Assembly: GCF_002556545.1 (NCBI RefSeq)
Contig: NZ_CP022685.1
Location: 7,604,001 to 7,668,000 of the forward strand
Direction of reading: 5' to 3'
Source: Streptomyces formicae
GTDB taxonomy: Bacteria; Actinomycetota; Actinomycetes; Streptomycetales; Streptomycetaceae
Length of the DNA: 64,000 nt
The notes beneath the pieces are model-generated. The model ran no database searches. It was not told the origin of the DNA and saw only the letters and a list, made by a program, of their open reading frames with translations. Both the position numbers and the translations under genes were made by a program. The first letter of the stretch is position 1. The number at the start of each line of letters is the position of its first letter. This document shows positions 10,643 through 27,871 of this stretch, piece by piece.

Positions 10643-10678
10643 TTCCATATAGCAGAACAAACTTTCCACAATGCGGAA
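10643..10678 (+). promoter_or_regulatory. Tandem operator pair upstream of gcl (AllR-like)
   Basis: TTCCATATAGCAGAA (10643-10657) and TTCCACAATGCGGAA (10664-10678) start 21 bp apart, two helical turns. The same two-part arrangement, in the same order relative to transcription, precedes hyi at 17664-17699. In S. coelicolor the IclR-family regulator AllR controls these genes, so an AllR homologue is the likely ligand; no such gene is in this window. Confidence 0.75.
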
Positions 10679-14245: not shown

Positions 14246-15703
14246 TCAGTCCTCGCGCAGGGCGCGGACGGCCTCCTCGACGCGCTTGCCGTAGTCGGCG
14301 TCGGCGGCGTGGAAGTGGGCGAGGTTCTTCTCGATGACGTCGTCGCGGGAGACCTGCGAGAGGCCGCCGGCGATGTTCGCCACCAGACGGGACTTCTCGT
14401 CCTCGGACATCAGGCGGTAGAGCTCGCCCGCCTGGAAGAAGTCGTCGTCCTTGGTGTGGGCCGGGGCCTCGTGCGTGCCCGTGTAGCCGTTGACGGCGAG
14501 CGGCGCGGAGAGCGCCTGGCCGGTCTCGGCGGGACCGTCGTACGAGTTGGGCTCGTAGTTCTTGCGGTCACGGCCGTACGCGTTGGACGCCATCAGGCCG
14601 TCGCGGCCGTAGTTGTCGGCCTTGGCCGCCTTGGGGGCGTTCACCGCGAGCTGGGTGTGGTTGACGCCCAGGCGGTAGCGGTGCGCGTCCGCGTAGGCGA
14701 ACAGGCGGCCCTGGAGCATCTTGTCGGGCGAGGGGCCGATGCCCGGCACGAAGTTGTTCGGGGAGAAGGCCGCCTGCTCCACCTCGGCGAACACGTTGTC
14801 GGGGTTGCGGTCGAGGACCAGACGGCCGACGCGCTGGAGCGGGTAGTCCTTGTGCGGCCACACCTTGGTGAGGTCGAACGGGTTGAAGCGGTACTCGGCC
14901 GCCTCCGCCGCGGGCATGATCTGCACGTGCAGCGTCCAGGACGGGTTCACGCCGCGCTCGATGGCCTGGAGCAGGTCCGTCTGGTGCGAGTTGGGGTCCT
15001 TGCCCGCGGTCTCGGCGCCCTGCTCGGCGGAGAGGCTGCGGATGCCCTGGTTCGTCTTGAAGTGGTACTTGACGAAGAAGGCCTCGCCCCGCGCGTTCGT
15101 CCACTGGTAGGTGTGCGAGCCGTAGCCGTTCATGTGGCGGTACGACGCGGGGATGCCGCGGTCGCCCATCAGCCAGGTGATCTGGTGCGTCGCCTCGGGG
15201 GCGTGCGCCCAGAAGTCCCAGACGTTGTCCGGCTCCTGCTTGCCCGTGAAGGGGTCGCGCTTCTGGGAGTGGATGAAGTCGGGGAACTTGATCGGGTCCT
15301 TGATGAAGAACACCGGGGTGTTGTTGCCGACGAGGTCGTAGTTGCCCTCTTCGGTGTAGAACTTCAGCGCGAAGCCGCGCGGGTCGCGGACGGCGTCGGC
15401 GCCGCCGAGGTTGTCGGCCACGGTGGAGAACCGCAGGAAGACCTCGGTGCGCTTGCCGATCTCGCTGAGGAAGTCGGCGTGGGTGAAGCCGGTGACGTCG
15501 TCCGTCACCTCGAAGTGGCCGTACGCACCGGAGCCGCGGGCGTGCACGACTCGCTCCGGGATGCGCTCACGGTTGAAGCGGGCGAGCTTCTCCAGGAGGT
15601 GCTGGTCCTGGAGCAGGATCGGGCCACCGACGCCGGCGGTGGCTGAGTTCTGGTTGTCGGCGACGGGGGCGCCGGACTCGGTCGTAAGCACGCGCTTCGA
15701 CAT
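14246..15703 (-). CDS. katA: Monofunctional haem catalase
   Basis: A 485-residue clade-3 type catalase that converts hydrogen peroxide to water and oxygen. The distal haem histidine is His54 (RVVHARG), the asparagine lies in VGNNTPVFF, and the proximal haem tyrosine is in [12 protein letters not shown]. Length is typical of small-subunit catalases and no signal peptide is present. It lies inside the urate/glyoxylate island, and its promoter carries the same 18-bp operator/-35 element as the uricase operon. This suggests it is made together with uricase to remove the peroxide uricase produces. The start is ATG 15703. A symmetrical hairpin terminates it. Confidence 0.95.
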
Positions 15704-15739: not shown

Positions 15740-15781
15740 AGCGTAAGGACCCCTGAACTGCTACGTCAACAGTTTGTTGAA
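15740..15781 (-). promoter_or_regulatory. katA promoter with an operator over the -35 box
   Basis: Reading the minus strand, TTCAACAAACTGTTGACG (15781-15764) is followed by 18 bases and TACGCT (15745-15740). TTGACG is the -35 box and TACGCT the -10. The palindrome TCAACA-N3-TGTTGA (15766-15780) overlaps the -35 box. The element ends 61 bp from the start codon. The identical 18 bp occur at 18560-18577 before uraD in the same orientation to transcription. Confidence 0.85.
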
Positions 15782-15872
15782 GTTGATGATGGGGTTCCGG
15801 GCCGCGGCGACGCCTGGGCGCGACAGGACAGGTGTCAGCGCCACCGCGGCCCGGAAGTTCATGGGGGAGCTC

Positions 15873-16763
15873 TTAGAGCTCGGCGCCCGAGAGGCGCTCG
15901 ACGGAGCGCAGCAGGGCGGAGTGGTCCAGGCCGCCGTCACCCTGGGCGCGCAGCGAGGCGACCAGCTGGGCGACGACCGCGCCGACCGGCAGGGCGGCAC
16001 CGACGTTGCGGGCGGCGTCGGTGACGATGCCCATGTCCTTGTGGTGCAGGTCGATCCGGAAGCCGGGCTTGAAGTCCCGGTTCAGGAAGTTGTCCTTCTT
16101 GCGGGTCAGCACGGTCGAGCCCGCGAGGCCGCCGTTGAGGACGTCGAGCGCGGCCGTCAGGTCCACGCCGGACTTCTCCAGGAAGACCACGGCCTCGGCG
16201 CACGCCTGGATGTTCACGGCGACGATGAGCTGGTTGGCGGCCTTGACGGTCTGGCCCGAGCCGTGCGGACCGCACAGCACGATGGTCTTGCCCAGGGCGT
16301 CGAGGAGCGGCTTGGCCTCGTCGAAGTCGGCCTGCTCACCGCCGACCATGATGGAGAGCACGGCCTCGATGGCACCGGCCTCGCCGCCGGACACCGGGGC
16401 GTCCAGGACGCGCAGGCCCTTCTCCTTGGCGGCCTTGGCCAGGTCCACGGAGGTCTGCGGCGTGATCGACGACATGTCGACGATCAGCGCGCCCGCCTTC
16501 GCGTTCTCCAGGATGCCGTCGGCACCGTACGCGATGGCCTCGACCTGCGGCGACGCGGGCACCATCGTGACCACGACGTCGGCGTCCTTGACGGCCTCGG
16601 CGATGGACTTCGCGGCGGTGCCACCGGCGGCGGCAAGGCGGTCCAGCTTGTCCTGCTCCAGGGTGAAGCCGGTGACGGAGTAACCCGCCTTGATCAGGTT
16701 CTCGGACATGGGGGAGCCCATGATGCCGAGGCCGATCCACGCGATCTTGGGAAGGTTGCTCAT
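15873..16763 (-). CDS. glxR: 2-hydroxy-3-oxopropionate (tartronate semialdehyde) reductase
   Basis: A 296-residue beta-hydroxyacid dehydrogenase reducing tartronate semialdehyde to D-glycerate with NAD(P)H. Visible features are the Rossmann motif GLGIMGSPM (11-19), the substrate-binding DAPVSGG segment (about 121-127) and the catalytic lysine Lys174 in GSGQTVKAANQ. Length is typical. It starts 44 bases after the hydroxypyruvate isomerase stop and probably shares that gene's operator-controlled promoter. Together with gcl it forms the glycerate pathway that returns purine-derived glyoxylate to central metabolism. 169 bp separate its stop from the catalase start; catalase has its own promoter. 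Confidence 0.95.
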   Translation of the reverse strand: MSNLPKIAWIGLGIMGSPMSENLIKAGYSVTGFTLEQDKLDRLAAAGGTAAKSIAEAVKDADVVVTMVPASPQVEAIAYGADGILENAKAGALIVDMSSITPQTSVDLAKAAKEKGLRVLDAPVSGGEAGAIEAVLSIMVGGEQADFDEAKPLLDALGKTIVLCGPHGSGQTVKAANQLIVAVNIQACAEAVVFLEKSGVDLTAALDVLNGGLAGSTVLTRKKDNFLNRDFKPGFRIDLHHKDMGIVTDAARNVGAALPVGAVVAQLVASLRAQGDGGLDHSALLRSVERLSGAEL

Positions 16764-16807
16764 GAGGGTGCCTCTCTAACTGCTGACGTACGACGGTGAG
16801 TTGGCGC

Positions 16808-17647
16808 TCAGCGCGCGGCGCGGGCCTCGGCGGGCAGCCAGTCGAAGACCTCGGCGCTCGGGCGGTCCCCGGCCTTGTACTCCAGGCCGACCCAGCCCTC
16901 GTAACCGACCTTCTTGAGCTGGTCGAGAAGGGCCTCGAGGGGGAGCGAGCCGGTGCCGGGGGCGCCGCGGCCCGGGTTGTCCGCGATCTGCACGTGGCCG
17001 GTCTGGGCGGCGTACCGCTCGATGACCGACGGCAGGTCCTCGCCGTTCATGGACAGGTGGTACAGGTCCATCAGGAACTTGGCGTTGCCGAGCCCGGTGA
17101 GGGCGTTCACCTTGTCGACGATCTCGATCGCCTTGGGCGCGCTCACGATGGGGCAGAGCGGCGACTCGGGCTTGTTGAGGGCCTCGATCAGGAGGATCGC
17201 GCCGACGCGGTCGGCCTCGCGGGCCGCGCGCGCCAGGTTCTCCAGGGCGAGCTCGTCCTGGACGGCCGGGTCCACGCCGTCGACGCGGTTGCCGTACAGC
17301 GCGTTGAGCGCCGTGCAGCCGAGCGACTTGGCGAAGTCGGCCGCCACCGCGAGGTTCGCGCGGAACTTCTCGCTCTCCTCGCCGGGGATCGACAGGGCGC
17401 CGCGGTCGGGGCCCGGCAGCTGTCCGGCGTAGAAGTTCAGGCCCACCAGCTGGACGCCCGCGTCCTCGATCGCCTTCTTCAGGGCGTCGAGCTCGGACTG
17501 CTCGGGGGTGGGGGCGTCGACCCAGGGCCACCACAGCTCGACCGCGCCGAAGCCTGCCTTCGCGGCGGCCGCGGGGCGCTCCAGGAGCGGGAGCTCGGTG
17601 AAGAGGATCGACAGGTTCACATTGAAGCGCTGGTCGGAGTATCCCAT
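16808..17647 (-). CDS. hyi: Hydroxypyruvate isomerase, TIM-barrel type
   Basis: A 279-residue xylose-isomerase-like TIM barrel of the Hyi family, interconverting hydroxypyruvate and tartronate semialdehyde. It begins with the family pattern FNVNLSILFTELPLLERPAAA. Metal and base residues lie in LIEALNK, FLMDLYHLS, HVQIADNPGRGAPGTG and GLEYKA. It is the first gene of the hyi-glxR unit. The ATG start lies directly after the proximal operator (17664-17678), so a repressor there could also occlude the ribosome site. The order hyi, glxR, katA and its closeness to gcl match the Streptomyces allantoin/glyoxylate locus. Confidence 0.93.
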   Translation of the reverse strand: MGYSDQRFNVNLSILFTELPLLERPAAAAKAGFGAVELWWPWVDAPTPEQSELDALKKAIEDAGVQLVGLNFYAGQLPGPDRGALSIPGEESEKFRANLAVAADFAKSLGCTALNALYGNRVDGVDPAVQDELALENLARAAREADRVGAILLIEALNKPESPLCPIVSAPKAIEIVDKVNALTGLGNAKFLMDLYHLSMNGEDLPSVIERYAAQTGHVQIADNPGRGAPGTGSLPLEALLDQLKKVGYEGWVGLEYKAGDRPSAEVFDWLPAEARAAR

Positions 17648-17663
17648 GGGGCTTCCGCGCTCC

Positions 17664-17699
17664 TTCCGTATTGCGGAAGTTCATTTCTGCTTGATGGAA
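17664..17699 (-). promoter_or_regulatory. Tandem operator pair upstream of hyi (AllR-like)
   Basis: TTCCGTATTGCGGAA (17664-17678, near-perfect dyad) and TTCTGCTTGATGGAA (17685-17699) start 21 bp apart. In transcription order the distal site reads TTCCATCAAGCAGAA, almost identical to the distal gcl site. A -35 box TTGACA lies at 17728-17723, and the -10 (CACTCT, 17704-17699) is poor. Confidence 0.78.
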
Positions 17700-17773
17700 G
17701 AGTGCATGTGATCCGAGGAAGCTGTCAAGAGGGGGCTGCCGAAAATTCGAGGACCGGCAGTAGGTTGTTCCGC

Positions 17774-18052
17774 GTGCGATTGAGAGTGGAGTTCACGACC
17801 GAACCCTTCGATCTCGACGAGGCCCCCGCGCACGCGCTGGTGGCCCGCGACGTCATCGAGGGGGCCTCGCTCGACGCGGTGGACGTAGGTCCGTTCGGCA
17901 ATACGGCGGAGGGCGGCATCGACGCCGTGCTCACCGCGGTCGATGCCATGCTGCGCCAGTCCCTGGAGGCCGGGGCGACCCGTGTCTCGTTGCAGGTCAA
18001 CGTGATCGGCGAACCGGGGGAGCCGCGGAAGCCGGGGGAGGGGGATAAGTGA
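17774..18052 (+). CDS. Small thiamine-binding-domain-like (DUF77/YqgV type) protein
   Basis: A 92-residue protein with a predicted ferredoxin-like fold: a strand at MRLRVEFTTEP, a helix at 18-30, GPFGNTAEGGIDAVLTAVDAM, and a last strand TRVSLQVNVIGE. The GxxGNTxEGG turn and the order of elements resemble the DUF77 thiamine-binding family, but the match is by eye and the ligand could be different. GTG 17774 has no ribosome site; TAGGTT at 17761-17766 lies about eight bases upstream, so translation may be leaderless. It overlaps the next gene by four bases (GTGA). The pair lies between the hyi and uraD promoters in the purine island, so a regulatory or ligand-sensing role there is plausible. 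Confidence 0.6.
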   Translation: MRLRVEFTTEPFDLDEAPAHALVARDVIEGASLDAVDVGPFGNTAEGGIDAVLTAVDAMLRQSLEAGATRVSLQVNVIGEPGEPRKPGEGDK

Positions 18053-18426
18053 CCAGCTTCGGGGACGACCCCTTCGTCACCGCGGTGAAGCCGCTGGTGG
18101 ACGCCATGGGCGGCGAGCTGATGCCGCCCGCGGAGGCGGGGGCCGACGACGTCGTCCTCGCCTGGGAGGGCGAGGACGTGGTGGCCGTGCGGCTGCCGCA
18201 GCTCGCCGACTCCTTGGATCACATCCTGCTCGCCCTTGAGCGCAAGCGGGGGTGTCCACTGTCCGAGCTGGACCGCAAGGCGAAGCAGGAGGTCGTACGC
18301 ATATTGGAGGCGCGCGGAGCGTTCTCCGTGCGGCATGGTGTGGAGACGGTGGCGAGCGCCCTTGGCGTCAGCCGTTTCACCGTCTACAACTACCTGAACA
18401 GGGAGAACGCCGCTAAGGAGGGGTGA
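18049..18426 (+). CDS. Helix-turn-helix DNA-binding protein of the urate locus
   Basis: A 125-residue protein with a hydrophobic N-terminal domain (LVDAMGGELMPPAEAG, VVLAWEGEDVVAVRLP). Its C-terminal part has the helix LDRKAKQEVVRILEARGAF and an HTH, VETVASALGVSRFTVYNYLNR. The second half resembles the YlxR/PRD-like HTH in which one helix pair follows a regulatory helix. It is translationally coupled to the small upstream gene. Because it lies directly before the uraD-pucM-pucL operon, it is the best local candidate to bind the TCAACA-N3-TGTTGA operators at katA and uraD. That link is inference only. Confidence 0.72.
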   Translation: MTSFGDDPFVTAVKPLVDAMGGELMPPAEAGADDVVLAWEGEDVVAVRLPQLADSLDHILLALERKRGCPLSELDRKAKQEVVRILEARGAFSVRHGVETVASALGVSRFTVYNYLNRENAAKEG

Positions 18427-18450
18427 TTGTCCCCTCTGCGGGCCGGTGGT

Positions 18451-18478
18451 GGCTGGTCGCGCAGTTCCCCGCGCCCCT
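18451..18478 (+). repeat. Dispersed intergenic repeat, copy 1
   Basis: A 28-bp element starting GGCTGGTCGCGCAG and ending CGCGCCCCT. It is identical to the reverse complement of 42739-42766 and shares its last 22 bp with 42628-42649. It sits between the HTH gene stop and a terminator hairpin. Such elements are scattered between genes in Streptomyces genomes. Confidence 0.85.
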
Positions 18479-18514
18479 TGCGGGGCCTCCCCCCGAGTCA
18501 CTCTTCGCAGCTGA

Positions 18515-18542
18515 GCCGTCACCCGTATGAACGGGTGGCGGC
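18515..18542 (+). terminator. Terminator between the HTH gene and the urate operon
   Basis: GCCGTCACCCGT (18515-18526) pairs with ACGGGTGGCGGC (18531-18542) around an ATGA loop, with one G-T pair, followed by TTCTTTGTT. It separates the HTH gene from the uraD promoter. Confidence 0.8.
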
Positions 18543-18559
18543 TTCTTTGTTCAAGTTAT

Positions 18560-18601
18560 TTCAACAAACTGTTGACGCCGTGTTGTTGAAGGTCTTAGCT
18601 G
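18560..18601 (+). promoter_or_regulatory. uraD-pucM-pucL promoter with an operator over the -35 box
   Basis: TTCAACAAACTGTTGACG (18560-18577) contains TCAACA-N3-TGTTGA and ends in the -35 box TTGACG. After 18 bases comes the -10, TAGCTG (18596-18601). The start codon is 63 bp beyond the element. Sequence, orientation and spacing equal those at katA, so one regulator should control both. Confidence 0.85.
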
Positions 18602-18639: not shown

Positions 18640-19164
18640 GTGACTTCGAGTACGACACCGGGTCTCACCCGGTTCAACGCCTTGGAGGAGGCCGCGGCCA
18701 CCGCCGCCCTCCACGAGGTATGCGCCTCTTCGGCCTGGGGAGGAAAGCTCCTCTCCCAGCGCCCCTACGCCACTGTCGAAGCCCTCTTCGCCGCGAGCGA
18801 CGCCGCCATGGCCGAGCTCACCGCCGGCGATCTGGCCGAGGCGATGGCGGGGCACCCGCCGATCGGCCGCCCGAAGCCCGGGGACCCGACCTCGTCCCGC
18901 GAACAGCGGGGCATGGCGGGAGCCTCCGAGGAGCTCAAGGCCGAACTGCTCGAACTGAACCTGGCCTACCAGGAGAAGTTCGGGCACGTCTTCCTGATCT
19001 GCGCGACCGGCGCCACCGCCGAGTTCATGCTCGGACAGCTCAGGATCCGGATCGAGAACGAGGCGGAGGGAGAGCGGGAGATCGTCCGTACCGAACTGGG
19101 CAAGATCAACCGCATCCGTCTCACCCGTCTCGTAGCACTCGCAGAAGAAGGAAGCGACGCATGA
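18640..19164 (+). CDS. uraD: OHCU decarboxylase
   Basis: A 174-residue enzyme decarboxylating 2-oxo-4-hydroxy-4-carboxy-5-ureidoimidazoline to S-allantoin. The catalytic histidine is in the family motif GHPPIGRP, and the conserved EQ and NxxYxxKFGHVFLICATG segment (about 105-127) is present. GTG 18640 follows GGAGG. It overlaps the HIU hydrolase start by four bases (ATGA), and uricase follows within a few bases, so all three urate-degradation steps are on one transcript. The enzyme acts third in the pathway although its gene is first. Confidence 0.93.
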   Translation: MTSSTTPGLTRFNALEEAAATAALHEVCASSAWGGKLLSQRPYATVEALFAASDAAMAELTAGDLAEAMAGHPPIGRPKPGDPTSSREQRGMAGASEELKAELLELNLAYQEKFGHVFLICATGATAEFMLGQLRIRIENEAEGEREIVRTELGKINRIRLTRLVALAEEGSDA

Positions 19165-19568
19165 GCACCGCCACCACCGCCTCGGTGTCCACCCACATCC
19201 TGGACACCAGCGTCGGGCGCCCCGCCGAGGGCGTCGCCATCTCCCTGTCCGCCCGCAGTGGTACAGGCGAGGAGTGGCAGGCGCTCGGCGGCAGCGCGAC
19301 CGACGCGGACGGCCGCTGCAAGGACCTCCCGGCGCTGCCGGAAGGCACCACCCACGTACGTCTCGACTTCGAGACCGAGGCGTACTTCCTGAGTAAGAAG
19401 AACAAGCAAGCCGAGGCGCAGCAGGACGCCCCCGCGAATCGGGACAGCGGTGCGACCGGAGCGTTCTTCCCGGAGGTGGCGATCACGTTCGCCGTCACGC
19501 CGGGCGAGCACTACCACGTACCGCTGCTGCTCAACCCGTTCGGCTACTCCGTTTACCGAGGGAGCTAG
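19161..19568 (+). CDS. pucM: 5-hydroxyisourate hydrolase (transthyretin-like)
   Basis: A 135-residue transthyretin-related enzyme that opens 5-hydroxyisourate to OHCU. It has the N-terminal VSTHILDTSVGRPA with the catalytic histidine and the C-terminal signature ending SVYRGS. The family is usually about 110-115 residues; here roughly 20-25 extra polar residues (around 75-100, SKKNKQAEAQQDAPANRDSG) are inserted before FFPEVAITFAV. The insertion should lie in a surface loop. The start overlaps the uraD stop; uricase begins five bases after the stop. Confidence 0.94.
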   Translation: MSTATTASVSTHILDTSVGRPAEGVAISLSARSGTGEEWQALGGSATDADGRCKDLPALPEGTTHVRLDFETEAYFLSKKNKQAEAQQDAPANRDSGATGAFFPEVAITFAVTPGEHYHVPLLLNPFGYSVYRGS

Positions 19569-19573
19569 CAGAC

Positions 19574-20506
19574 ATGCCCACCATTCTGGGACAGAACCAG
19601 TACGGCAAGGCTGAGAACCGGGTCGTAAAGATCACGCGGGACGGCGACACCCACCACATCAAGGACCTGAACGTCTCGGTCGCCCTCTCCGGCGACCTGG
19701 ACGACGTCCACTACAACGGCTCGAACGCCAACTGCCTGCCGACGGACACCACGAAGAACACCTGCTTCGCGTTCGCCAAGGAATACGGCATCGAGTCCGC
19801 CGAGCAGTACGGCATCCACCTCGCCCGGCACTTCGTGGACAGCCAGCCCTCCATCCACCGCGCGCGGATCCGGATCGAGGAGTACTCCTGGGAGCGCATC
19901 GGCGGCTCCGACAGCAACTCCAAGTTCATCGGCGCCGACGAGGTCAAGCACTCCTTCGTCCGCAAGGGCCAGGAGACGCGGCTCGCCCAGATCACCTATG
20001 ACGGGGAGAACTTCGAGGTCCTCTCGGGTCTGAAGGACCTGACCGTGATGAACTCCACGAACTCCGAGTTCTGGGGCTACATCAAGGACAAGTACACGAC
20101 CCTGCAAGAGGACTACGACCGCATCCTCGCCACCTCCCTGTCCACCTGGTGGCGGCACAACTGGACCAACGACGAGCAGCGCATGCCCAGTTGGGAGCGG
20201 TCGTACGAGCAGTCCAAGAAGCACATCCTGCAGGCCTTCGTGGAGACCTACTCCCTGTCGCTCCAGCAGACGCTCTACCAGATGGGTTCGCGGGTCATCA
20301 ACAACCGCAGCGAGATCGACGAGATCCGCTTCTCCGCGCCCAACAAGCACCACTTCCGCCAGGACCTCTCCGCCTTCGGACTCGACAACGAGGCCAAGGA
20401 CGGCGCCGTCTACTACGCGGCCGACCGTCCCTACGGCCTCATCGAGGCCACGATCCTGCGGGACGGCGTCGAGCCGAAGATCCCGGTCGACATGACCAAC
20501 CTCTGA
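19574..20506 (+). CDS. pucL: Uricase (urate oxidase)
   Basis: A 310-residue cofactor-free urate oxidase producing 5-hydroxyisourate and hydrogen peroxide. Conserved features are GQNQYGKAENRVVKI with the catalytic lysine (Lys12), the active-site threonine region NCLPTDTTKNT, SFVRKGQ, and the substrate-binding Arg/Gln part with NKHHFRQDLSAFG near the C-terminus. Length is normal. It lacks the peroxisomal targeting signal of eukaryotic forms, as expected. The ATG is preceded by GAGGGAG. A GC-rich hairpin follows before the first permease gene. The peroxide produced explains the co-controlled catalase. Confidence 0.96.
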   Translation: MPTILGQNQYGKAENRVVKITRDGDTHHIKDLNVSVALSGDLDDVHYNGSNANCLPTDTTKNTCFAFAKEYGIESAEQYGIHLARHFVDSQPSIHRARIRIEEYSWERIGGSDSNSKFIGADEVKHSFVRKGQETRLAQITYDGENFEVLSGLKDLTVMNSTNSEFWGYIKDKYTTLQEDYDRILATSLSTWWRHNWTNDEQRMPSWERSYEQSKKHILQAFVETYSLSLQQTLYQMGSRVINNRSEIDEIRFSAPNKHHFRQDLSAFGLDNEAKDGAVYYAADRPYGLIEATILRDGVEPKIPVDMTNL

Positions 20507-20570: not shown

Positions 20571-21998
20571 ATGGCACAGCCTGCATCGGGGCCCGCAGAA
20601 GGTCCATGTTCCACCCCACCGGACACAGCTGACTCAGCTGACGGCGGCTCGACCGCCGCCTGTCATCCGGTGGACGAGAAGCTCCACCCCTCGCGGCTCG
20701 TCCCCGCCGCGCTCCAGCACATCGCCGCCATGTACGCGGGTGTCGTCACCCCTCCGCTCATCATCGGCCAGGCGTGTGGCCTGGACACCGTGGCCCAGAC
20801 CCGGCTGATCGCCGCGGGTCTGCTGATCGCCGGTCTCGCCACCATCCTGCAGACCCTCGGCGTCAAGGGCTTCGTCGGCAACCGCCTGCCGTTCGTCAAC
20901 GCCGCCTCCTCCGCGGGCATCGCGCCCATCCTCGCCATCGCCGAGACCAACGCCAAGGGCGACCAACTCCCGGCGATCTACGGCGCGGTGATGGTCGCGG
21001 GCGTCTTCTGTCTCGCCGTGGGACCCTTCTTCGGCCGACTGCTCCGCTTCTTCCCGCCGCTGGTCACCGGCGTCGTCATCACCCTCATCGGCGTCACGCT
21101 GATGCCCGTGCCGGTCAAGTGGGCACAGGGCGGGGACGAGACCGACCCGACCTTCGGCGACATGAAGTACCTCGCGCTCGCCGCCTTCACGCTCGTCGTG
21201 ATCCTGCTCTTCCAGCGTTTCGGCCGCGGCTTCCTCAAGCAAGTCGCCCTGCTGGCAGGCATGTTCATCGGCACGCTCGCCGCGATCCCGTTCGGGATGG
21301 CCGACTTCACCTCCGTACAGACGGCGCCGCTCGCCGCGCTGCCCACGCCGTTCGCCGCGGGGGCGCCGGTCTTCCAGCCCGCCGCGATCCTCTCGCTCTG
21401 CATCGTGATGCTGGTCCTGATGACGGAGTCGGCTGCCGGGATGCTGGCCCTCGGCGAGATCTGCGAGCGCAAGACCGACGGGAAGACCATCACCCGCGGC
21501 CTGCGCACGGACGGCATCGCCACGCTCGTGGGACCGGTGTTCGGCGGCTTCCCGACCTCGGCCTTCGCGCAGAACGTCGGCGTCGTCTCCCTGACCCGGG
21601 TCCGCAGCCGGTACGTCGTCGCCGTCGCGGGCGGCGCGCTCATCGTGCTCGGCGCCTTCCCGGTGCTCGGCGCGGTCGTGAACGTCGTCCCCATGCCGGT
21701 GCTCGGCGGCGCGGGCATCGTCCTCTTCGGCTCCATCGCGGTCAGCGGCATCCGTACGCTCTCCGAGGCGGGCCTGGACGACAGTTCCAACATCATCCTG
21801 GTGGCCGTGTCGCTCGGAGCGGGCATCATCCCGCTCGCCGCGCCCACCTTCTACGCGGAGTTCCCCGCGTGGGCCCAGACCGTGCTCGGCTCCGGCATCA
21901 GCGCCGGTGCGCTCGTCGCGGTCACGCTCAACCTGTTCTTCCACCATCTCGGCACCCGTAGCAGCGCCAACGCGGCTGCGGCACTCAAATCTTCCTAG
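20571..21998 (+). CDS. NCS2 (NAT) purine permease 1
   Basis: A 475-residue, about 14-helix nucleobase symporter of the NCS2/NAT family. It has the QH motif in the first helix (LQHIAAMYAGVV) and the NAT signature QNVGVVSLTRVRSR, with Gln first and Thr-Arg at the end. That pattern is found in xanthine/urate transporters rather than uracil ones. Hydrophilic N-terminal 40 residues precede helix 1, with the shared HPVDEKLHP motif. It follows uricase by 64 bp and precedes a guanine-type deaminase by 46 bp, consistent with import of urate or xanthine. Two paralogues are encoded at 23723 and 26483. Confidence 0.92.
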   Translation: MAQPASGPAEGPCSTPPDTADSADGGSTAACHPVDEKLHPSRLVPAALQHIAAMYAGVVTPPLIIGQACGLDTVAQTRLIAAGLLIAGLATILQTLGVKGFVGNRLPFVNAASSAGIAPILAIAETNAKGDQLPAIYGAVMVAGVFCLAVGPFFGRLLRFFPPLVTGVVITLIGVTLMPVPVKWAQGGDETDPTFGDMKYLALAAFTLVVILLFQRFGRGFLKQVALLAGMFIGTLAAIPFGMADFTSVQTAPLAALPTPFAAGAPVFQPAAILSLCIVMLVLMTESAAGMLALGEICERKTDGKTITRGLRTDGIATLVGPVFGGFPTSAFAQNVGVVSLTRVRSRYVVAVAGGALIVLGAFPVLGAVVNVVPMPVLGGAGIVLFGSIAVSGIRTLSEAGLDDSSNIILVAVSLGAGIIPLAAPTFYAEFPAWAQTVLGSGISAGALVAVTLNLFFHHLGTRSSANAAAALKSS

Positions 21999-22044
21999 GG
22001 TCATGCCGTGCCCACATCGCCACTCACCGAGTAAAGGAAGCACC

Positions 22045-23454
22045 ATGGCAGCATCGGCAACCCCCAGCAGCACCGCAGGCGCCGTCGAGCGCATCGTCAT
22101 CGAGAACGTCGCCATCGCGACGGTCGACGCCACCGACACCGAGTACGCCTCGGGTCACATCGTCGTCGCGGGCAACAGGATCGAGTCCATCGGGGCGGGC
22201 AAGGCTCCCGAGGGCCTGGAGAACGTCGTGCGCCGCGTCGACGGCACGGGACACCTCGCCACGCCCGGCCTGGTCAACACGCACCACCACTTCTACCAGT
22301 GGATCACCAGGGGCCTGGCCACCGACCACAACCTGTTCAACTGGCTGGTGGCGCTGTACCCGACCTGGGCGCGCATCGACGAGCAGATGACGTACGCGGC
22401 CGCGCAGGGCTCCCTCGGCATGATGGCCCGCGGCGGTGTCACCACCGCCATGGACCACCACTACGTCTTCCCGAAGGGCTCCGGCGACCTGTCGGGCTCG
22501 ATCATCCGTGCCGCCTCCGAGATGGGCGTCCGCTTCACCCTGGCCCGCGGCTCCATGGACCGCAGCGAGAAGGACGGCGGCCTGCCGCCGGACTTCGCCG
22601 TCGAGACCCTCGAAGGCGCGCTCGCCGCGACCGAGGAGACCGTCAAGAAGCACCACGACGCGTCCTTCGACGCGATGACGCAGGTGGCCGTCGCGCCCTG
22701 CTCGCCGTTCTCCGTCTCCACCGAACTCATGAAGCAGGGCGCCGAGTTGGCGCGTCGCCTCGGCGTACGACTGCACACCCACGGCAGCGAGACGGTCGAG
22801 GAGGAGAAGTTCTGCCACGAGCTGTTCGGCATGGGCCCGACCGACTACTTCGAGTCGACCGGATGGCTGGGTGAGGACGTGTGGATGGCGCACTGCGTCC
22901 ACATGAACGACTCCGACATCGCGGCGTTCGCCCGTACCGGTACGGGCGTTGCCCACTGCCCGTCCTCCAACGCGCGTCTGGCGGCCGGTATCGCCCGCGT
23001 CCCCGACATGCTCAAGGCGGGCGTCCCCGTCGGCCTCGGCGTCGACGGCACCGCTTCCAACGAGTCCGGCGAGCTCCACACCGAGCTGCGCAACGCCCTG
23101 CTCATCAACCGCCTCGGCGCGCACCGCGAGGCCGCCCTGAACGCCCGTCAGGCGCTGCGCCTCGGCACCTACGGTGGCGCGCAGGTCCTGGGGCGCGCCA
23201 CGCAGATCGGCTCCCTGGAGGCGGGCAAGCTCGCCGACCTGGTGCTCTGGAAGATCGACGGCATCGGGCACGCCTCGATCGCCGACCCGGTGACCGCCAT
23301 CGTCTTCGGCGCCGCGGCCCCGGTCACGCTCTCCCTCGTCAACGGCGAGCCGGTCGTCGAGAACGGCCGCCTGCTGCACGCCGACGAGGACGCCATCGCC
23401 CGCTCCACGCGGGAGGAGGCGCAGCGTCTCGCGCGGATCGCCGCCGGGAGCTGA
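22045..23454 (+). CDS. Amidohydrolase, 8-oxoguanine/guanine deaminase type
   Basis: A 469-residue metal-dependent hydrolase of the TRZ/ATZ deaminase group. Metal ligands are visible in TPGLVNTHHHFYQ (HxH), HTHGSETVEEE, HCVHM and GVDGTASNESGE. The sequence FCHELFGMGPTDYFESTGWLG is the substrate-side helix typical of 8-oxoguanine deaminases annotated in Streptomyces. It would convert 8-oxoguanine to urate, feeding uricase, or guanine to xanthine. ATG 22045 follows AAAGGAAG. It lies between two NCS2 permeases, supporting a purine substrate. Exact specificity cannot be fixed without structure or assay. Confidence 0.88.
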   Translation: MAASATPSSTAGAVERIVIENVAIATVDATDTEYASGHIVVAGNRIESIGAGKAPEGLENVVRRVDGTGHLATPGLVNTHHHFYQWITRGLATDHNLFNWLVALYPTWARIDEQMTYAAAQGSLGMMARGGVTTAMDHHYVFPKGSGDLSGSIIRAASEMGVRFTLARGSMDRSEKDGGLPPDFAVETLEGALAATEETVKKHHDASFDAMTQVAVAPCSPFSVSTELMKQGAELARRLGVRLHTHGSETVEEEKFCHELFGMGPTDYFESTGWLGEDVWMAHCVHMNDSDIAAFARTGTGVAHCPSSNARLAAGIARVPDMLKAGVPVGLGVDGTASNESGELHTELRNALLINRLGAHREAALNARQALRLGTYGGAQVLGRATQIGSLEAGKLADLVLWKIDGIGHASIADPVTAIVFGAAAPVTLSLVNGEPVVENGRLLHADEDAIARSTREEAQRLARIAAGS

Positions 23455-23493
23455 ACCCATGAACTCCGGTTGAGGGGGACGGCCCTCGACCGG

Positions 23494-23566
23494 ACTTGAG
23501 CAGCCGAGCGGGCTGCTCAAGTTGCCGCCCCGGAACGCGGCCCAAAACTTCGCGTTCCCGGGGCGG
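23494..23566 (+). terminator. Double hairpin after the deaminase gene
   Basis: Two stems in tandem. ACTTGAGCAGCC (23494-23505) pairs with 23511-23522. CCGCCCCGGAACGCG (23525-23539) pairs with 23551-23566, with one bulged C. They end the uricase-permease-deaminase unit. About 155 bp of leader then precede the second permease; no riboswitch fold is recognisable in it. Confidence 0.78.
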
Positions 23567-23722
23567 TCAGCACTACCTGGGCGCATTTCCACCGGCCACG
23601 CCGGTACCTCTCAGCACCACCCACAACCTCATACCGAGCAAGTCCTTGCACGACGCACCACCTCCCAGAAGCGAAAAGTGCCGGCGCTCAGCCGGGACCG
23701 GAAAACAACCGGAGGAGCCACA

Positions 23723-25186
23723 GTGGCCAATCAGCCCAGGTTCACCAAGCAAGGCACCACCCCAGGCACCACCCCGGGCCCGGACACCGACGAGGGGTCC
23801 ATACACCCCGTCGACGAGAAGCTCCCCCCGCTGAAGATGGCGACGACCGGCCTCCAGCACGTCGCCGCCATGTACGCGGGAGTCGTCGCGCCCCCGCTCA
23901 TCGTGGGAGCGGCGATCGGCCTCTCCGCCAAGGAACTCACCTTCCTCACCGGCGCCTGTCTCTTCACCGCGGGCCTCGCGACCTTCCTGCAGACCCTCGG
24001 CGTCTGGAAGATCGGCGCCCGCCTCCCCTTCGTCAACGGCGTGACCTTCGCCGGTGTCGCGCCCATGCTCGCCGTCGTCGACTCCACCAAGGACAAGGAC
24101 GACGCGCTGCCGATCATCTTCGGCGCGGTCATCGTCGCGGGCGTGCTCGGCTTCATCGCCGCCCCGTTCTTCTCCAAGATGATCCGCTTCTTCCCGCCGG
24201 TCGTGACCGGCACGGTCATCACCCTGATCGGCATCTCGCTGATGCCCGTCGCCTTCGGCTGGGCGCAGGGACCGGTCCCCGGGGCCGACGACTACGGCTC
24301 GATGAAGAACCTGGGCCTCGCGGGCATCACGCTCGTGGTCGTCCTGCTCCTTCGCCGCTTCACCACCGGGTTCGTGAAGCAGATCGCCGTACTGCTCGGC
24401 CTGGTCATCGGCACGGTCATCGCGATCCCCTTCGGCGTCACGGACTTCGGCCCGGTCGGCGACGCGGACGTCGTCGGCTTCCCGACGCCCTTCCACTTCG
24501 GCGCCCCGCAGTTCGCGGCCGCCGCGATCGTCTCCCTGTGCGTGGTCATGGTGGTCTCGATGACCGAGTCCACCGCCGACATGCTGGCGCTCGGTGAGAT
24601 CGTCGACCGCCCCGCCGACGAGAAGACCATCGCGGCGGGCCTGCGCGCCGACACCCTCGGCTCGGCGATCAGCCCGCTCTTCAACGGCTTCATGTGCAGC
24701 GCCTTCGCGCAGAACATCGGTCTGGTCGCGATGACGAAGATCCGCAGCCGGTACGTCGTGGCGGCGGGCGGCGGCTTCCTCGTCCTGATGGGTCTGTGCC
24801 CGATGGCGGCGTCGCTGATCGCGGTCGTGCCGCGCCCGGTGCTCGGCGGCGCGGGCGTGGTCCTCTTCGGTTCGGTCGCGGCGAGCGGCATCCAGACGCT
24901 GGTGAAGGCGAACCTGGAGAAGGACAACAACGTCCTGATCGTGGCGGTCTCGCTGGCCGTCGGCCTGATCCCGATCGCGGCGCCGGAGTTCTACCACGCG
25001 TTCCCGGAGACCGCGAAGATCATCCTCGACTCGGGCATCTCGACGGGCTGCGTGGCCGCCGTCCTCCTGAACCTGGTCTTCAACCACATCGGCAAGGGCC
25101 GTGAGGACGACGACGTCACGGCGCCGATGGAGGGCGGCGAGGCGATCGCGGAGACGCGGGTGCCGGGGCAGGCCGTGGCGCACTGA
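23723..25186 (+). CDS. NCS2 (NAT) purine permease 2
   Basis: A 487-residue paralogue of the permease at 20571, with the same elements: SIHPVDEKLPP before helix 1, the QH motif LQHVAAMYAGVV, and the NAT signature QNIGLVAMTKIRSR. Lys at the second-last signature position (Arg in permease 1) is a known specificity position in the family, so transported bases may differ. The first 25 residues are a Thr/Pro-rich cytoplasmic extension. GTG 23723 follows GGAGGA. It has its own leader after a double terminator, and a bidirectional hairpin follows. Confidence 0.91.
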   Translation: MANQPRFTKQGTTPGTTPGPDTDEGSIHPVDEKLPPLKMATTGLQHVAAMYAGVVAPPLIVGAAIGLSAKELTFLTGACLFTAGLATFLQTLGVWKIGARLPFVNGVTFAGVAPMLAVVDSTKDKDDALPIIFGAVIVAGVLGFIAAPFFSKMIRFFPPVVTGTVITLIGISLMPVAFGWAQGPVPGADDYGSMKNLGLAGITLVVVLLLRRFTTGFVKQIAVLLGLVIGTVIAIPFGVTDFGPVGDADVVGFPTPFHFGAPQFAAAAIVSLCVVMVVSMTESTADMLALGEIVDRPADEKTIAAGLRADTLGSAISPLFNGFMCSAFAQNIGLVAMTKIRSRYVVAAGGGFLVLMGLCPMAASLIAVVPRPVLGGAGVVLFGSVAASGIQTLVKANLEKDNNVLIVAVSLAVGLIPIAAPEFYHAFPETAKIILDSGISTGCVAAVLLNLVFNHIGKGREDDDVTAPMEGGEAIAETRVPGQAVAH

Positions 25187-25218
25187 GCCACCGGCCCACG
25201 GCCACCGGTTGTTCCGGC

Positions 25219-25251
25219 GCCCCTCGCGCGGTCAGGACCCGCGCGAGGGGC
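25219..25251. terminator. Bidirectional terminator
   Basis: GCCCCTCGCGCGG (25219-25231) pairs with 25239-25251, a 13-bp stem with a 7-base loop. It sits in the 86-bp gap between the convergent permease 2 and ADP-ribosyltransferase genes, serving both. Confidence 0.8.
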
Positions 25252-25272
25252 CGCCGCGCGAGCGGCCACCGC

Positions 25273-26187
25273 TCAGTCGCTGTCGATGTCCATCGCGTCG
25301 CCCTGCCCGGCCGCGGCCTGCCCCGCCCCGGCGCCACCGGCGGGGATGACCTTGAGGATGTTGCCGTTCTTGTCGCACAGCTCCGCGCGCAGGATGTGAC
25401 CGGCCGTCATGCCCCGCCAGAAGATGACCTCCTGCTGCTGGACGAAGGACGTGGTGCCCAGCGTGTCCACCAGGTCGATGCCGCCGGGCGCGCTGATCAC
25501 ATAGCGGTAGCCGCTGCCGTCGGGCTGGCGTGCCCAGTCGGGCACGTATCCGCCGGGGGAGCGGGTGGTGCTGACGAAACCGGTCTTCTGCAGCAGCTTC
25601 TGGTAGTGCCGCAGGCTGGCCGGGAGCTTGTCGTTCCAGGCGTCGAACCCCTTGCCGAGGATCTGGTCGGGGGTGCGCTTGTCCCACCGGTACAGGAGTT
25701 CGTTGTCCTTGCGGTAGAGCAGCGGCGGGAGGGGGCGCCCACCGCCCGCCTTGTCCTCGCGCATCGTCTTCACCTTGGCCGGGTCGACGCCGTACTTGCT
25801 GTCGCCGAACCCGACCGCCTCCTGGGGCGTCGGAGTGGTGGACCGCGGGTACTTGCCGCGCTCGGCCATGAACGACTGGTAGTCGGCCTCGTCCGCCTCG
25901 GAGTCCATGCCGCCGTCCGAGATCTCCTCGGCATCGGAGAAGTCCCGCTGGTCGATGTCCATGGCCATCGAGTCCTGCCCCGGCGCCCGCTGCACCACGG
26001 GCTGTTCGCCCCGCTGTTCGCCCTGCCGCTCGTCCTGCTGAAGCAGTTGGACGACGGCGGCGTTGCCCGCGGCGGCCTGGAGCGCCTGGAGCCGCTGCAA
26101 GGGGGAGCCCGCTCCGGCCGGGGATCTGCGGGCCGCGGCTCGCGACGTCGCTGGGGCGGTTTTCCTGGCGTGGTCGTGTTCGCGCAA
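25273..26187 (-). CDS. Pierisin/scabin-like ADP-ribosyltransferase toxin with an export-cargo-type leader
   Basis: A 304-residue protein. The C-terminal half carries the R-S-E triad of DNA/nucleoside-modifying ADP-ribosyltransferases: Arg167 in LLYRWDKR, Ser206-Thr-Thr in GFVSTTR, and Gln251-x-Glu253 in QQQEVIFWRG. GGIDLVDTLG and the YR(D/K)DNELLYR run-in also match the pierisin/scabin group. Residues 30-49 read LQRLQALQAAAGNAAVVQLL, a helix common at the start of Streptomyces toxins, including cargo of extracellular contractile injection systems. No Sec signal is seen. Two SMAMDID/DAMDIDS peptides flank the catalytic part. TTG 26187 is preferred for its GAGGAG site; GTG 26214 is the alternative. 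No immunity gene is adjacent. It interrupts the permease genes. Confidence 0.82.
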   Translation of the reverse strand: MREHDHARKTAPATSRAAARRSPAGAGSPLQRLQALQAAAGNAAVVQLLQQDERQGEQRGEQPVVQRAPGQDSMAMDIDQRDFSDAEEISDGGMDSEADEADYQSFMAERGKYPRSTTPTPQEAVGFGDSKYGVDPAKVKTMREDKAGGGRPLPPLLYRKDNELLYRWDKRTPDQILGKGFDAWNDKLPASLRHYQKLLQKTGFVSTTRSPGGYVPDWARQPDGSGYRYVISAPGGIDLVDTLGTTSFVQQQEVIFWRGMTAGHILRAELCDKNGNILKVIPAGGAGAGQAAAGQGDAMDIDSD

Positions 26188-26482
26188 CGGGGGGCTCCTC
26201 GGTGACAGAGGCACCCATGCTTCCCGAAGGGCACCGGACGGGACCAGAAGCGGAAGGGCAGCATTCGATGACCGAACGGGCAGGTGGGCGCGGTCGTGCC
26301 GATCAAGGTGAGCGGCTCCGGGGTCTTCCGCGGCCGGGGTGCGCTGACGTAACGTCGTGGCGCCGCCGATCGCATGGCGGAAGTTACTTTCCAGTCGGTC
26401 AAGGCCGCCCTGTTCCGCGTCTCGTGAACTCCCACGGAACGGGAGCGACTTCCGGCGTCACGCAACGGAAGAAGCGCCACCC

Positions 26483-27871
26483 ATGAGTTCTGCAGCGAAG
26501 TCCGCCGCCGCGCGTGCGGGCACCCCGGAAGTCCACCCCGTCGACGAGGTCCTGCCGCCGGGCCGGATGCTCGTCGCCAGCCTCCAGCACGTCGCCTCCA
26601 TGTACGCGGGCGCGGTCTCCGTCCCGCTCGTCGTGGCCGTCGCGGCGAAGATGTCGCCGGGCGACACGGCCGTACTCATGGGCGGCAGCCTCCTGATGGC
26701 GGGCATCGCGACGCTCCTCCAGACCCTCGGCATCGGCACCTTCATCGGCTCGCGCCTGCCGTTCGTCAACGGCGTCTCGTTCGCGGGCGTCGGCGTGATG
26801 CTGACGATCATCTCGACCCAGGGCGGCGTCGAGGCGGGCATGCCGATCGTGTTCGGCGCGATCATCGTCTCAAGTCTCTTCGGTTTCCTGGTCAGTTCGT
26901 ACTTCTCGCGCCTGGTCCGCTTCTTCCCGCCCGTCGTCACCGGCTCGGTCATCACCCTGATCGGCGTCTCGCTGATCCCCGTCGCGTACGACTGGATCGT
27001 GGACGACTCGACGACCGGCACGCCGGAACCGAAGAGCATCGGGCTCGCGGGCGCCACCGTCCTGGTCATGCTCCTGCTCCAGCGCTTCACGCGCGGCTTC
27101 CTCAAGCAGATCAGCATGCTCTTCGCGATGGTCTTCGGCACGCTGCTCGCGATACCGATGGGCCTCGCCGACTTCTCGAAGCTGGACGGCGCCGACCCGG
27201 TCGGCATCCCGTCCCCGCTGCACTTCGGCGCCCCGGAGTTCAACATCCCCGCGATCATCTCCATGTGCGTCGTGATGCTGGTGATCCTCACCGAGTCGAC
27301 CGCCGACATGATCGCCCTCGGCAAGATCGTCGAGAAGGACGTCGACGAGAAGACCATCGCCCGCGGCCTGCGCGCCGATGCGCTCGGCTCGGCGCTGAGC
27401 CCCCTCTTCAACGCCTTCCACGCCAGCGCGTTCGCGCAGAACATCGGCCTGGTCGTCATCTCCAAGGTGCGCAGCCGCTTCGTCGTCGCCCTCAGCGGCG
27501 CCATCCTGGTCCTGATCGGCCTCAGCCCCGCCGCGGCCGCGCTGATCTCCGTGGTCCCCATGCCGGTGCTCGCCGCCGTGAGCCTCTTCCTCTTCGGCTC
27601 CATCGCGGTCAGCGGCATCCAGACCCTCTTCCAGGCCGACCTGCACCGGGGCGACAACGCGCTGATCGTGGTCGTCACCCTCGGCGCGGGCCTGGCCCCC
27701 GCACTCTCCGACGGCTTCTACGAAGCGTTCCCCGACTGGGCGCAGATCGTCCTCGGCTCGGGCATCTCCACGGGCTGCATCCTCGCGGTGACACTGAACC
27801 TGATCTTCAACCACCTCGGTACGAAGGAGAGTTCGGTCCCACCGGACCCGGAACCCGCGACGACGCACTGA
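26483..27871 (+). CDS. NCS2 (NAT) purine permease 3
   Basis: A 462-residue third paralogue with EVHPVDEVLPP, the QH motif LQHVASMYAGAV, and NAT signature QNIGLVVISKVRSR. Here the signature threonine is replaced by Ser-Lys, again pointing to a different substrate. It diverges from the toxin gene, with about 295 bp between starts. This gap holds a GGAA-N6-TTCC dyad near 26379-26392 but no copy of the operators at gcl or katA, so its regulation seems separate. The last 15 residues are Pro/Ser/Thr-rich. Import of a purine is likely but the specific base is not known. Confidence 0.9.
   Translation: MSSAAKSAAARAGTPEVHPVDEVLPPGRMLVASLQHVASMYAGAVSVPLVVAVAAKMSPGDTAVLMGGSLLMAGIATLLQTLGIGTFIGSRLPFVNGVSFAGVGVMLTIISTQGGVEAGMPIVFGAIIVSSLFGFLVSSYFSRLVRFFPPVVTGSVITLIGVSLIPVAYDWIVDDSTTGTPEPKSIGLAGATVLVMLLLQRFTRGFLKQISMLFAMVFGTLLAIPMGLADFSKLDGADPVGIPSPLHFGAPEFNIPAIISMCVVMLVILTESTADMIALGKIVEKDVDEKTIARGLRADALGSALSPLFNAFHASAFAQNIGLVVISKVRSRFVVALSGAILVLIGLSPAAAALISVVPMPVLAAVSLFLFGSIAVSGIQTLFQADLHRGDNALIVVVTLGAGLAPALSDGFYEAFPDWAQIVLGSGISTGCILAVTLNLIFNHLGTKESSVPPDPEPATTH

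Follow-up and report, generated by a model that had tools for sequence, protein, structure and literature searches.

The 64,000-nucleotide stretch of the Streptomyces formicae genome analysed here (contig NZ_CP022685.1, positions 7,604,001 to 7,668,000; hereafter the window) carries the catalase gene katA and the uricase operon uraD-pucM-uox (uox is also written pucL), each preceded by one and the same 18-bp element, TTCAACAAACTGTTGACG, a predicted operator. The host genome is a single contig of 9,611,874 bp. According to the open reading frames (ORFs) of the window and their Pfam matches, katA, a tartronate semialdehyde reductase-like gene and hyi run leftward, while a small PF01910-like gene, the gene for an HTH_22 protein, uraD, pucM, uricase and a permease gene run rightward. 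The features needed first are the following.

14246..15703, minus strand: katA, catalase (PF00199, E = 2.5e-187)
15740..15745, minus strand: −10-like box of katA, TACGCT, 18 bp from TTGACG (from spacing and the consensus of related loci)
15764..15781, minus strand: predicted operator of katA, exact match to TTCAACAAACTGTTGACG, its 3′ part TTGACG forming the −35 box
17774..18052, plus strand: small MTH1187/thiamine-binding-like protein, proposed sensor half (PF01910, E = 4.1e-5)
18049..18426, plus strand: HTH_22 protein, proposed DNA-binding half and candidate repressor, overlapping the preceding gene in GTGA (PF13309, E = 8.4e-20)
18560..18577, plus strand: predicted operator of uraD-pucM-uox, exact match to TTCAACAAACTGTTGACG, its 3′ part TTGACG forming the −35 box
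18596..18601, plus strand: −10-like box of uraD, TAGCTG at 18 bp, with TTAGCT at 17 bp as an alternative (from spacing)
18640..19164, plus strand: uraD, OHCU decarboxylase, GTG start (profile scan)
19161..19568, plus strand: pucM, 5-hydroxyisourate hydrolase (PF00576)
19574..20506, plus strand: pucL/uox, uricase (PF01014, TIGR03383)

Exactly two matches to TTCAACAAACTGTTGACG were found in the window, with none further at up to 3 mismatches and a mean of 0.00 in shuffled sequences (n = 100). A preliminary description of the window, made from its letters alone, had pointed out this shared element, its identical orientation to the two genes, the 18-bp spacing to the −10 box and a palindrome covering the −35 box, all of which were reproduced here: the −35 box TTGACG is the 3′ end of the element at both genes. 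The distance to the start codon, given there as 61-63 bp, was counted as 60 bp for katA and 62 bp for uraD. The genome scan for the 15-bp dyad proposed in the same description was run, and TCAACA-N3-TGTTGA was found exactly in two places, before katA and before uraD, where about 0.03 were expected from base composition. The wider core TTCAAC-N5-GTTGA added a third exact site, at allB. One-mismatch sites numbered 14; among the 13 inspected (L003-L015), that of allB alone directly precedes a pathway gene, one (L004) lies 92 bp 5′ of a gene without an assigned identity, two (L008, L011) fall outside predicted genes, and most of the remaining ones are intragenic.

Conservation was assessed in the best 80 of 349 loci from a UraD search, all of them from Streptomyces; katA fell inside the fetched DNA in 54 of these. 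The 17-mer TTCAACAAA[C/G]TGTTGAC stands 5′ of uraD in 80/80 loci and 5′ of katA in 54/54, and all its positions are invariant except the centre base, which at uraD is G in 65 loci and C in 15, and at katA is always C. The perfect 18-bp identity of the two copies in the window genome is thus partly luck. The site contains 1.96 bits/base at uraD and 2.00 at katA (73 and 53 distinct sequences), against 0.53 to 1.07 bits/base in the 40-bp flanks of the same sequences. Across 1.49 Mb of related loci, 135 dyads were detected, 80 before uraD and 55 before katA, with none elsewhere and no match to a reversed control pattern; in one locus (L041), katA is preceded by two tandem dyads about 70-120 bp upstream. 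That the two copies reflect a local promoter duplication or a chance resemblance of −35 boxes has a negligible probability. They do lie only 2.8 kb apart; on the other hand, their similarity ends at 18 bp, the flanks are unrelated, the centre base differs in most relatives, and the element is conserved in all loci above and at many other targets. Duplication was therefore rejected, as was plain −35 conservation, since conservation of the left half equals that of the −35 half, and it is the left half that was lost in two genomes described below (G109, G025). The shared element is real and conserved far beyond coincidence.

The HTH_22 gene and the gene for its small partner overlap by 4 nt in the window. 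The former lies directly 5′ of uraD in 79/80 related loci, and in 78 of these 79 an RTG start is placed exactly at the 4-nt overlap with the PF01910-like gene, the start being chosen as the candidate nearest to that position. In the exceptional locus (L035:9000-10000), the last HTH_22 codons (NYLNRE...) abut unrelated DNA, as if an element had been inserted at the recognition-helix codons. The HTH_22 match of the window protein covers residues 56-117 at 71 bits (cut-off 29.6), while the small protein scores 23.9 bits with PF01910, just under the cut-off of 24.9. In genome G195, which belongs to f33, a family outside Streptomycetaceae, both proteins form one 190-residue polypeptide, and TTCAACAAACTGTTGAC follows within about 100 bp downstream, before uricase. 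Among the best 120 of 1025 hits to the fused protein, 114 carry both PF01910 and PF13309, and the matches listed include the genera Pedococcus, Phycicoccus, Knoellia and Amycolatopsis. A structure model of one fused homologue (P0185; predicted local distance difference test score (pLDDT) 90.9, predicted template modelling score (pTM) 0.52) shows an MTH1187-like domain and a C-terminal helical domain and matched 1lxn (E = 1.4e-5), a fold match made on this fused homologue. Searching the PDB by sequence with the HTH_22 protein revealed no convincing relative. Where the dyad adjoins the gene, the recognition helix reads (V/L/M)(S/T)RFT(V/I)YNYLNR; in a set of 15 distant homologues that have no dyad in the surrounding 1.5 kb or so, it reads RITVYNYLN in 10 and RFT in 5, four of these with YNYLD.

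The dyad and the regulator genes occur together. Of 150 Streptomycetaceae genomes, 138 have both the protein and the dyad, 8 have neither and 4 are discordant, with the protein only in G022 and G109 (a 43-residue fragment) and the dyad only in G053 and in G138, a genome 71% complete whose site lies at a contig edge. In a set of 296 genomes of the class, the dyad turned up in 25 outside the genus, in one place each save G195 with three. The sole outside protein with an E value under 1e-15 is likewise that of G195 (1.3e-19), the next one reaching 1.1e-10. The 119 genomes of f33 were tested independently. All 15 with the protein, fused or split, contain the dyad (33 places), compared with 15 of the 104 without it (16 places, with varied centres); a dyad at up to 2 mismatches is directly beside the pair in 14/15. 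Uricase was detected in 40 f33 genomes, including every protein-positive one, and the dyad stands beside it in 12/15 genomes with the protein and in none of the 25 without. The Fisher p values, not corrected for ancestry, were 3.7e-11 for all f33 genomes and 7.7e-7 for the uricase-positive ones only. In Tsukamurella tyrosinosolvens, of a third order, the split pair is divergent from uraD, and the DNA separating them holds the sole dyad of a 10-kb stretch. Loss of the site accompanies loss of the gene as well. G109 has broken genes for both the HTH_22 protein and uricase, and CCCAACGAACTGTTGACG stands at its uraD promoter, with the −35 half kept and the other half decayed; the uraD promoters of G109 and G025 both retain TGTTGACG without the left dyad half, and in G025 an apparent HTH_22-gene remnant runs straight into TGTTGACG. 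In G068 and G008, gene and site are both absent. The best catalases in 12 searched genomes were at most 78% identical, and neither glxR nor hyi was found in the surrounding 1.5 kb or so; these catalases are therefore likely to be other paralogues, uninformative on the katA site. On these co-occurrence and comparative grounds, the HTH_22 protein at 18049-18426, already the candidate of the preliminary description, stands as the best candidate and is likely the factor acting at the dyad.

The dyad occurs at other promoters as well. TTCAACA-N3-TGTTGA is present in 140/150 Streptomycetaceae genomes, compared with 4 hits in total for the reversed pattern. The regions fetched for target calling were chosen for extra sites and cover the listed sites in part, so the proportions are not those of a random sample. 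Malic-enzyme, DUF6986, xanthine dehydrogenase, permease and allantoinase calls were verified by Pfam or NCBIfam; four DUF6986 genes (L175, L180, L181, L182) were called by blastp alone. In the first 40 Streptomycetaceae regions, 36 sites precede uraD/uricase (alone 15, with katA 1, with malate synthase 2), malic enzyme (8), DUF6986 (8) or moaA (2) genes, and those in L135, L140, L141 and L150 fit no target. A further 20 regions add allB, urease gamma (two genomes), DUF6986 in the genus of the window and, from another family, xanthine dehydrogenase; seven of them have the site at a cyclophilin-like gene that faces away from cydA. The sites in L168, L176 and L179 fit no target. In 18 additional regions from f33 protein-positive genomes, the site stands before genes for xanthine dehydrogenase (7) or purine permeases (4, plus one beside the pair), and otherwise before uricase, DUF6986 or hyi; L361, L371, L374 and L376 fit no target, the last site lying just behind a ureidoglycine aminohydrolase gene. 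In two regions from protein-negative f33 genomes, blastp found no pathway gene, the genes named being Rpf-like and tyrosyl-tRNA synthetase. Across targets, the full-length core reads TTCAAC-N5-GTTGAA. The dyad marks a regulon of steps or cofactors from purine through ureide, glyoxylate and malate to pyruvate. Among the assigned targets, the exceptions are the cyclophilin-like gene and catalase; Streptomyces and some relatives have katA as an additional member. Sites at several purine-catabolic promoters are one mark expected of a purine-catabolism repressor in the functional sense, and they were found at uraD, xanthine dehydrogenase, allB, urease, the permeases and moaA.

This target list bears on the nature of the signal. 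A peroxide-sensing regulator acting on both window genes through the dyad, with hydrogen peroxide as the common signal, would fit catalase as one of the two window targets, and passages of PMC4991794 describe a drop of the S. coelicolor urate genes SCO6209-6211 (uraD-pucM-uox) under oxidative stress that depends on HbpS-SenS-SenR. The predicted SenR site printed there for SCO6209, however, differs from the dyad, and the remaining targets (xanthine dehydrogenase, permeases, allantoinase, urease, malate synthase, malic enzyme) are not peroxide genes. We rejected a peroxide regulon on this list and hold a peroxide sensor to be very improbable; the inducer is more likely a purine metabolite. Of the earlier proposal of one repressor releasing catalase and uricase together, the shared operator and the single regulator are supported on comparative grounds; hydrogen peroxide, which it named beside urate for a binding check, is not supported as the signal.

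Three groups of dyad sites deserve separate description. DUF6986 (PF22484) genes lie under the dyad in several genera (L145:3775-5067, L163:3704-4999, L129:3743-5050, L175:5032-6321, L181:3645-4976). The family weakly resembles HpcH/HpaI and malyl-CoA lyase, a PDB sequence search with it likewise yielded no convincing relative, and malate synthase holds the equivalent dyad place in genus g5; DUF6986 is a candidate glyoxylate-condensing enzyme. As an aceB-like stretch adjoins DUF6986 in G446 (L294), it need not replace malate synthase. The cyclophilin-like gene (PF04126 in the two scanned) diverges from the gene for subunit I of cytochrome bd (scanned in L169), and a perfect TTCAACA-N3-TGTTGAA lies shortly 5′ of its start in seven regions (L169:4624-5016, L170:4599-4967, L171-L174, L177). 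Finally, TTCAACACTCTGTTGA recurs in genomes of genus g14, where the single fetched region (L150) has it upstream of a GH25 gene; it also precedes urease gamma in L183 and L184.

The remaining features of the locus include sites of a second kind.

10664..10678, plus strand: TTCCACAATGCGGAA, differing from the hyi palindrome by one mismatch and lying close to where the gcl ORF starts (pattern match)
15873..16763, minus strand: tartronate semialdehyde reductase-like gene between katA and hyi (PF03446/PF14833)
16808..17647, minus strand: hyi, hydroxypyruvate isomerase-like (PF01261)
17664..17678, plus strand: TTCCGTATTGCGGAA, a different palindrome, before hyi, AllR-type (pattern match)
18513..18544, plus strand: terminator-like hairpin, 3′ of the HTH_22 gene and ahead of the uraD promoter (folding of 18505-18562: −29.1 kcal/mol, z −5.2)
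20571..21998, plus strand: xanthine/uracil-type permease gene 3′ of uricase (PF00860)

The strong, terminator-like hairpin parts the HTH_22 gene from the uraD promoter; a hairpin pattern scan alone found 2 against 2.0 expected in shuffles, not above chance. Behind uricase, the stretch 20571-27871 contains three permease genes of the xanthine/uracil type (PF00860) and one for an 8-oxoguanine deaminase (22045-23454), whose NF006055 match exceeds the cut-off.

AllR is an IclR-family regulator of allantoin catabolism in Streptomyces, and the hyi palindrome is of the AllR type. Allowing one mismatch, that palindrome has 4 matches in the window against 2.9 in shuffles, a number not above chance, which makes it weak evidence by itself. 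The allB gene (allantoinase, TIGR03178) lies opposite an IclR-family gene, and the allB dyad directly adjoins TTCCGTTAAGCGGAA. This abutment of the dyad on a site of the type TTCCG...CGGAA was seen at allB of the window genome (L014:1490-1530; C1:7711753) and in L175, L182, L136 and L156, and in some relatives DUF6986 and aceB also carry both kinds of site. The arrangement suggests double control at the ureide/glyoxylate node. The view that two regulators divide the pathway stands insofar as hyi and gcl have a different, AllR-type site, and fails at allB, which carries both kinds.

The operator prediction, its conservation, the surrounding regulon and the co-occurrence with the regulator genes are established, and we infer from them the following scheme. 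The two co-translated polypeptides, the HTH_22 DNA-binding protein and the small protein of MTH1187/thiamine-binding fold, would form a repressor that, free of ligand, directly binds TTCAAC-N5-GTTGAA and masks the −35 boxes of katA and uraD-pucM-uox. The ligand, a metabolite derived from purine and in all likelihood urate or some later ureide, would bind the repressor, probably in its MTH1187-fold part, whereupon the repressor would leave and both promoters fire; with both derepressed together, catalase would be made alongside the peroxide-producing uricase. We consider it likely that the element is the operator of such a ligand-released, two-polypeptide repressor of purine catabolism, which co-induces catalase and uricase. 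The chances are about even that, more broadly, a split factor, consisting of a separate MTH1187-fold sensor and a minimal HTH_22 protein, responds to a purine metabolite and controls the purine-to-pyruvate regulon, with catalase recruited in Streptomyces and some relatives as a counter to the peroxide from uricase, and that a fused factor uses the same operator in other actinobacteria. The small partner, the fusion and the wider regulon are additions to the preliminary description.

Several observations weigh against this scheme. At katA and uraD, the dyad is centred near −40, a position that would also suit an activator. If the pair bound the dyad as a class II activator, the centre about 40 bp before the expected transcription start and the poor −10 boxes would be accounted for. 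Against this, TTGACG is already a good −35 box, and at other promoters the dyad lies between the −35 and −10 boxes, over the start or downstream, where it would block rather than recruit polymerase. With boxes judged by eye, it covers the −35 box at katA, uraD and moaA, falls in the −35/−10 spacer at xanthine dehydrogenase of G195, lies directly past the −10 box at allB and DUF6986, and at malic enzyme is removed from that box by about 15-17 bp on the downstream side. Since such variation suits a blocking repressor, we regard activation as unlikely. A PDB fold search with the model of the window HTH_22 protein (mean pLDDT 80.5) gave no significant match. In the genome comparison, G022 is a counterexample, its HTH_22 gene being intact and its uraD without the dyad, and G053 keeps two dyads with the HTH_22 gene undetected. 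The uricase found in three protein-positive f33 genomes (G484, G510, G527) is far from any dyad, and the 16 dyad places in the 104 protein-negative f33 genomes exceed the reversed control (5 in 119). One deletion may have removed the gene and part of the promoter together in G025, G068 and G008. As the pair is a neighbour of uraD, part of the co-occurrence is confounded, and the counts are uncorrected for shared ancestry.

Some of these points would fit a dyad that belongs to a different regulator encoded elsewhere, such as a urate sensor of the MarR type or a regulator of the TetR type, the family of XdhR, with the HTH_22 pair merely travelling with the uricase cluster. The persistence of dyads in G053 is in line with this, and precedents are found in passages on HucR, a MarR-family protein released from the Deinococcus uricase promoter by urate (PMC5487221), and on XdhR, which controls xdh in S. 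coelicolor (PMC6627660). However, the dyad tracks the HTH_22 pair and not uricase, being found beside uricase in 0/25 pair-free f33 genomes that have uricase; its left half is lost where the HTH_22 gene is broken; and it adjoins the pair in 14/15 f33 genomes (at up to 2 mismatches) and in Tsukamurella. We consider an unlinked regulator rather unlikely and retain the two-polypeptide repressor.

The proposed repressor resembles several known systems in part. Pfam recognises PF13309 as the sole domain of the window HTH_22 protein. This C-terminal domain is shared with the regulators of the YheO/DauR type, which are defined by an N-terminal YheO/PAS-like domain before it. No such N-terminal domain was found by Pfam in the window protein; in Streptomyces the N-terminus is short, and in the fused form an MTH1187 domain takes that place. 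The proposed sensor half, judged on the modelled fused homologue, may share the fold of the MTH1187/TM0486/YkoF thiamine-binding proteins, of which TM0486 is reportedly thiamin-binding, going by the title of a work cited in PMC6393860; here, in contrast, the protein belongs to a purine cluster and is linked to a DNA-binding protein by fusion or co-translation. AllR acts on neighbouring pathway steps, its presumed site touching the dyad at allB beside the divergent IclR-family gene, but its palindrome, TTCCG-N5-CGGAA, is different. Like the proposed factor, HucR has its gene next to that of uricase and acts as a repressor that a purine metabolite releases, according to passages of PMC5487221; unlike HucR and PecS, the present system combines an HTH_22 and an MTH1187-like protein, neither of which matched a MarR domain in the Pfam scan, and has a far wider set of sites. 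XdhR of S. coelicolor also regulates purine oxidation (PMC6627660) but is ppGpp-responsive and known from the xdh operon.

In S. coelicolor, SCO6204 is listed as a putative catalase (PMC7324645), and SCO6208, by position probably the HTH_22 gene, as a putative transposase (PMC3897704). One table puts SCO6209 together with xanthine dehydrogenase, SCO6247 and SCO6248 as genes of purine degradation that shared the direction of their change (PMC6629963). The literature searched, which left out most subscription journals, contained no description of the dyad motif or of the HTH_22 protein as a regulator.

If the proposed scheme is true, the operator would let the regulon be read across many genomes, and DUF6986, a family of unknown function, would gain a pathway context in glyoxylate disposal. 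A new urate- or ureide-responsive biosensor is a possible application. Uricase-linked purine breakdown in actinobacteria would gain a regulator of new architecture, and the source and the sink of peroxide would be paired by built-in control.

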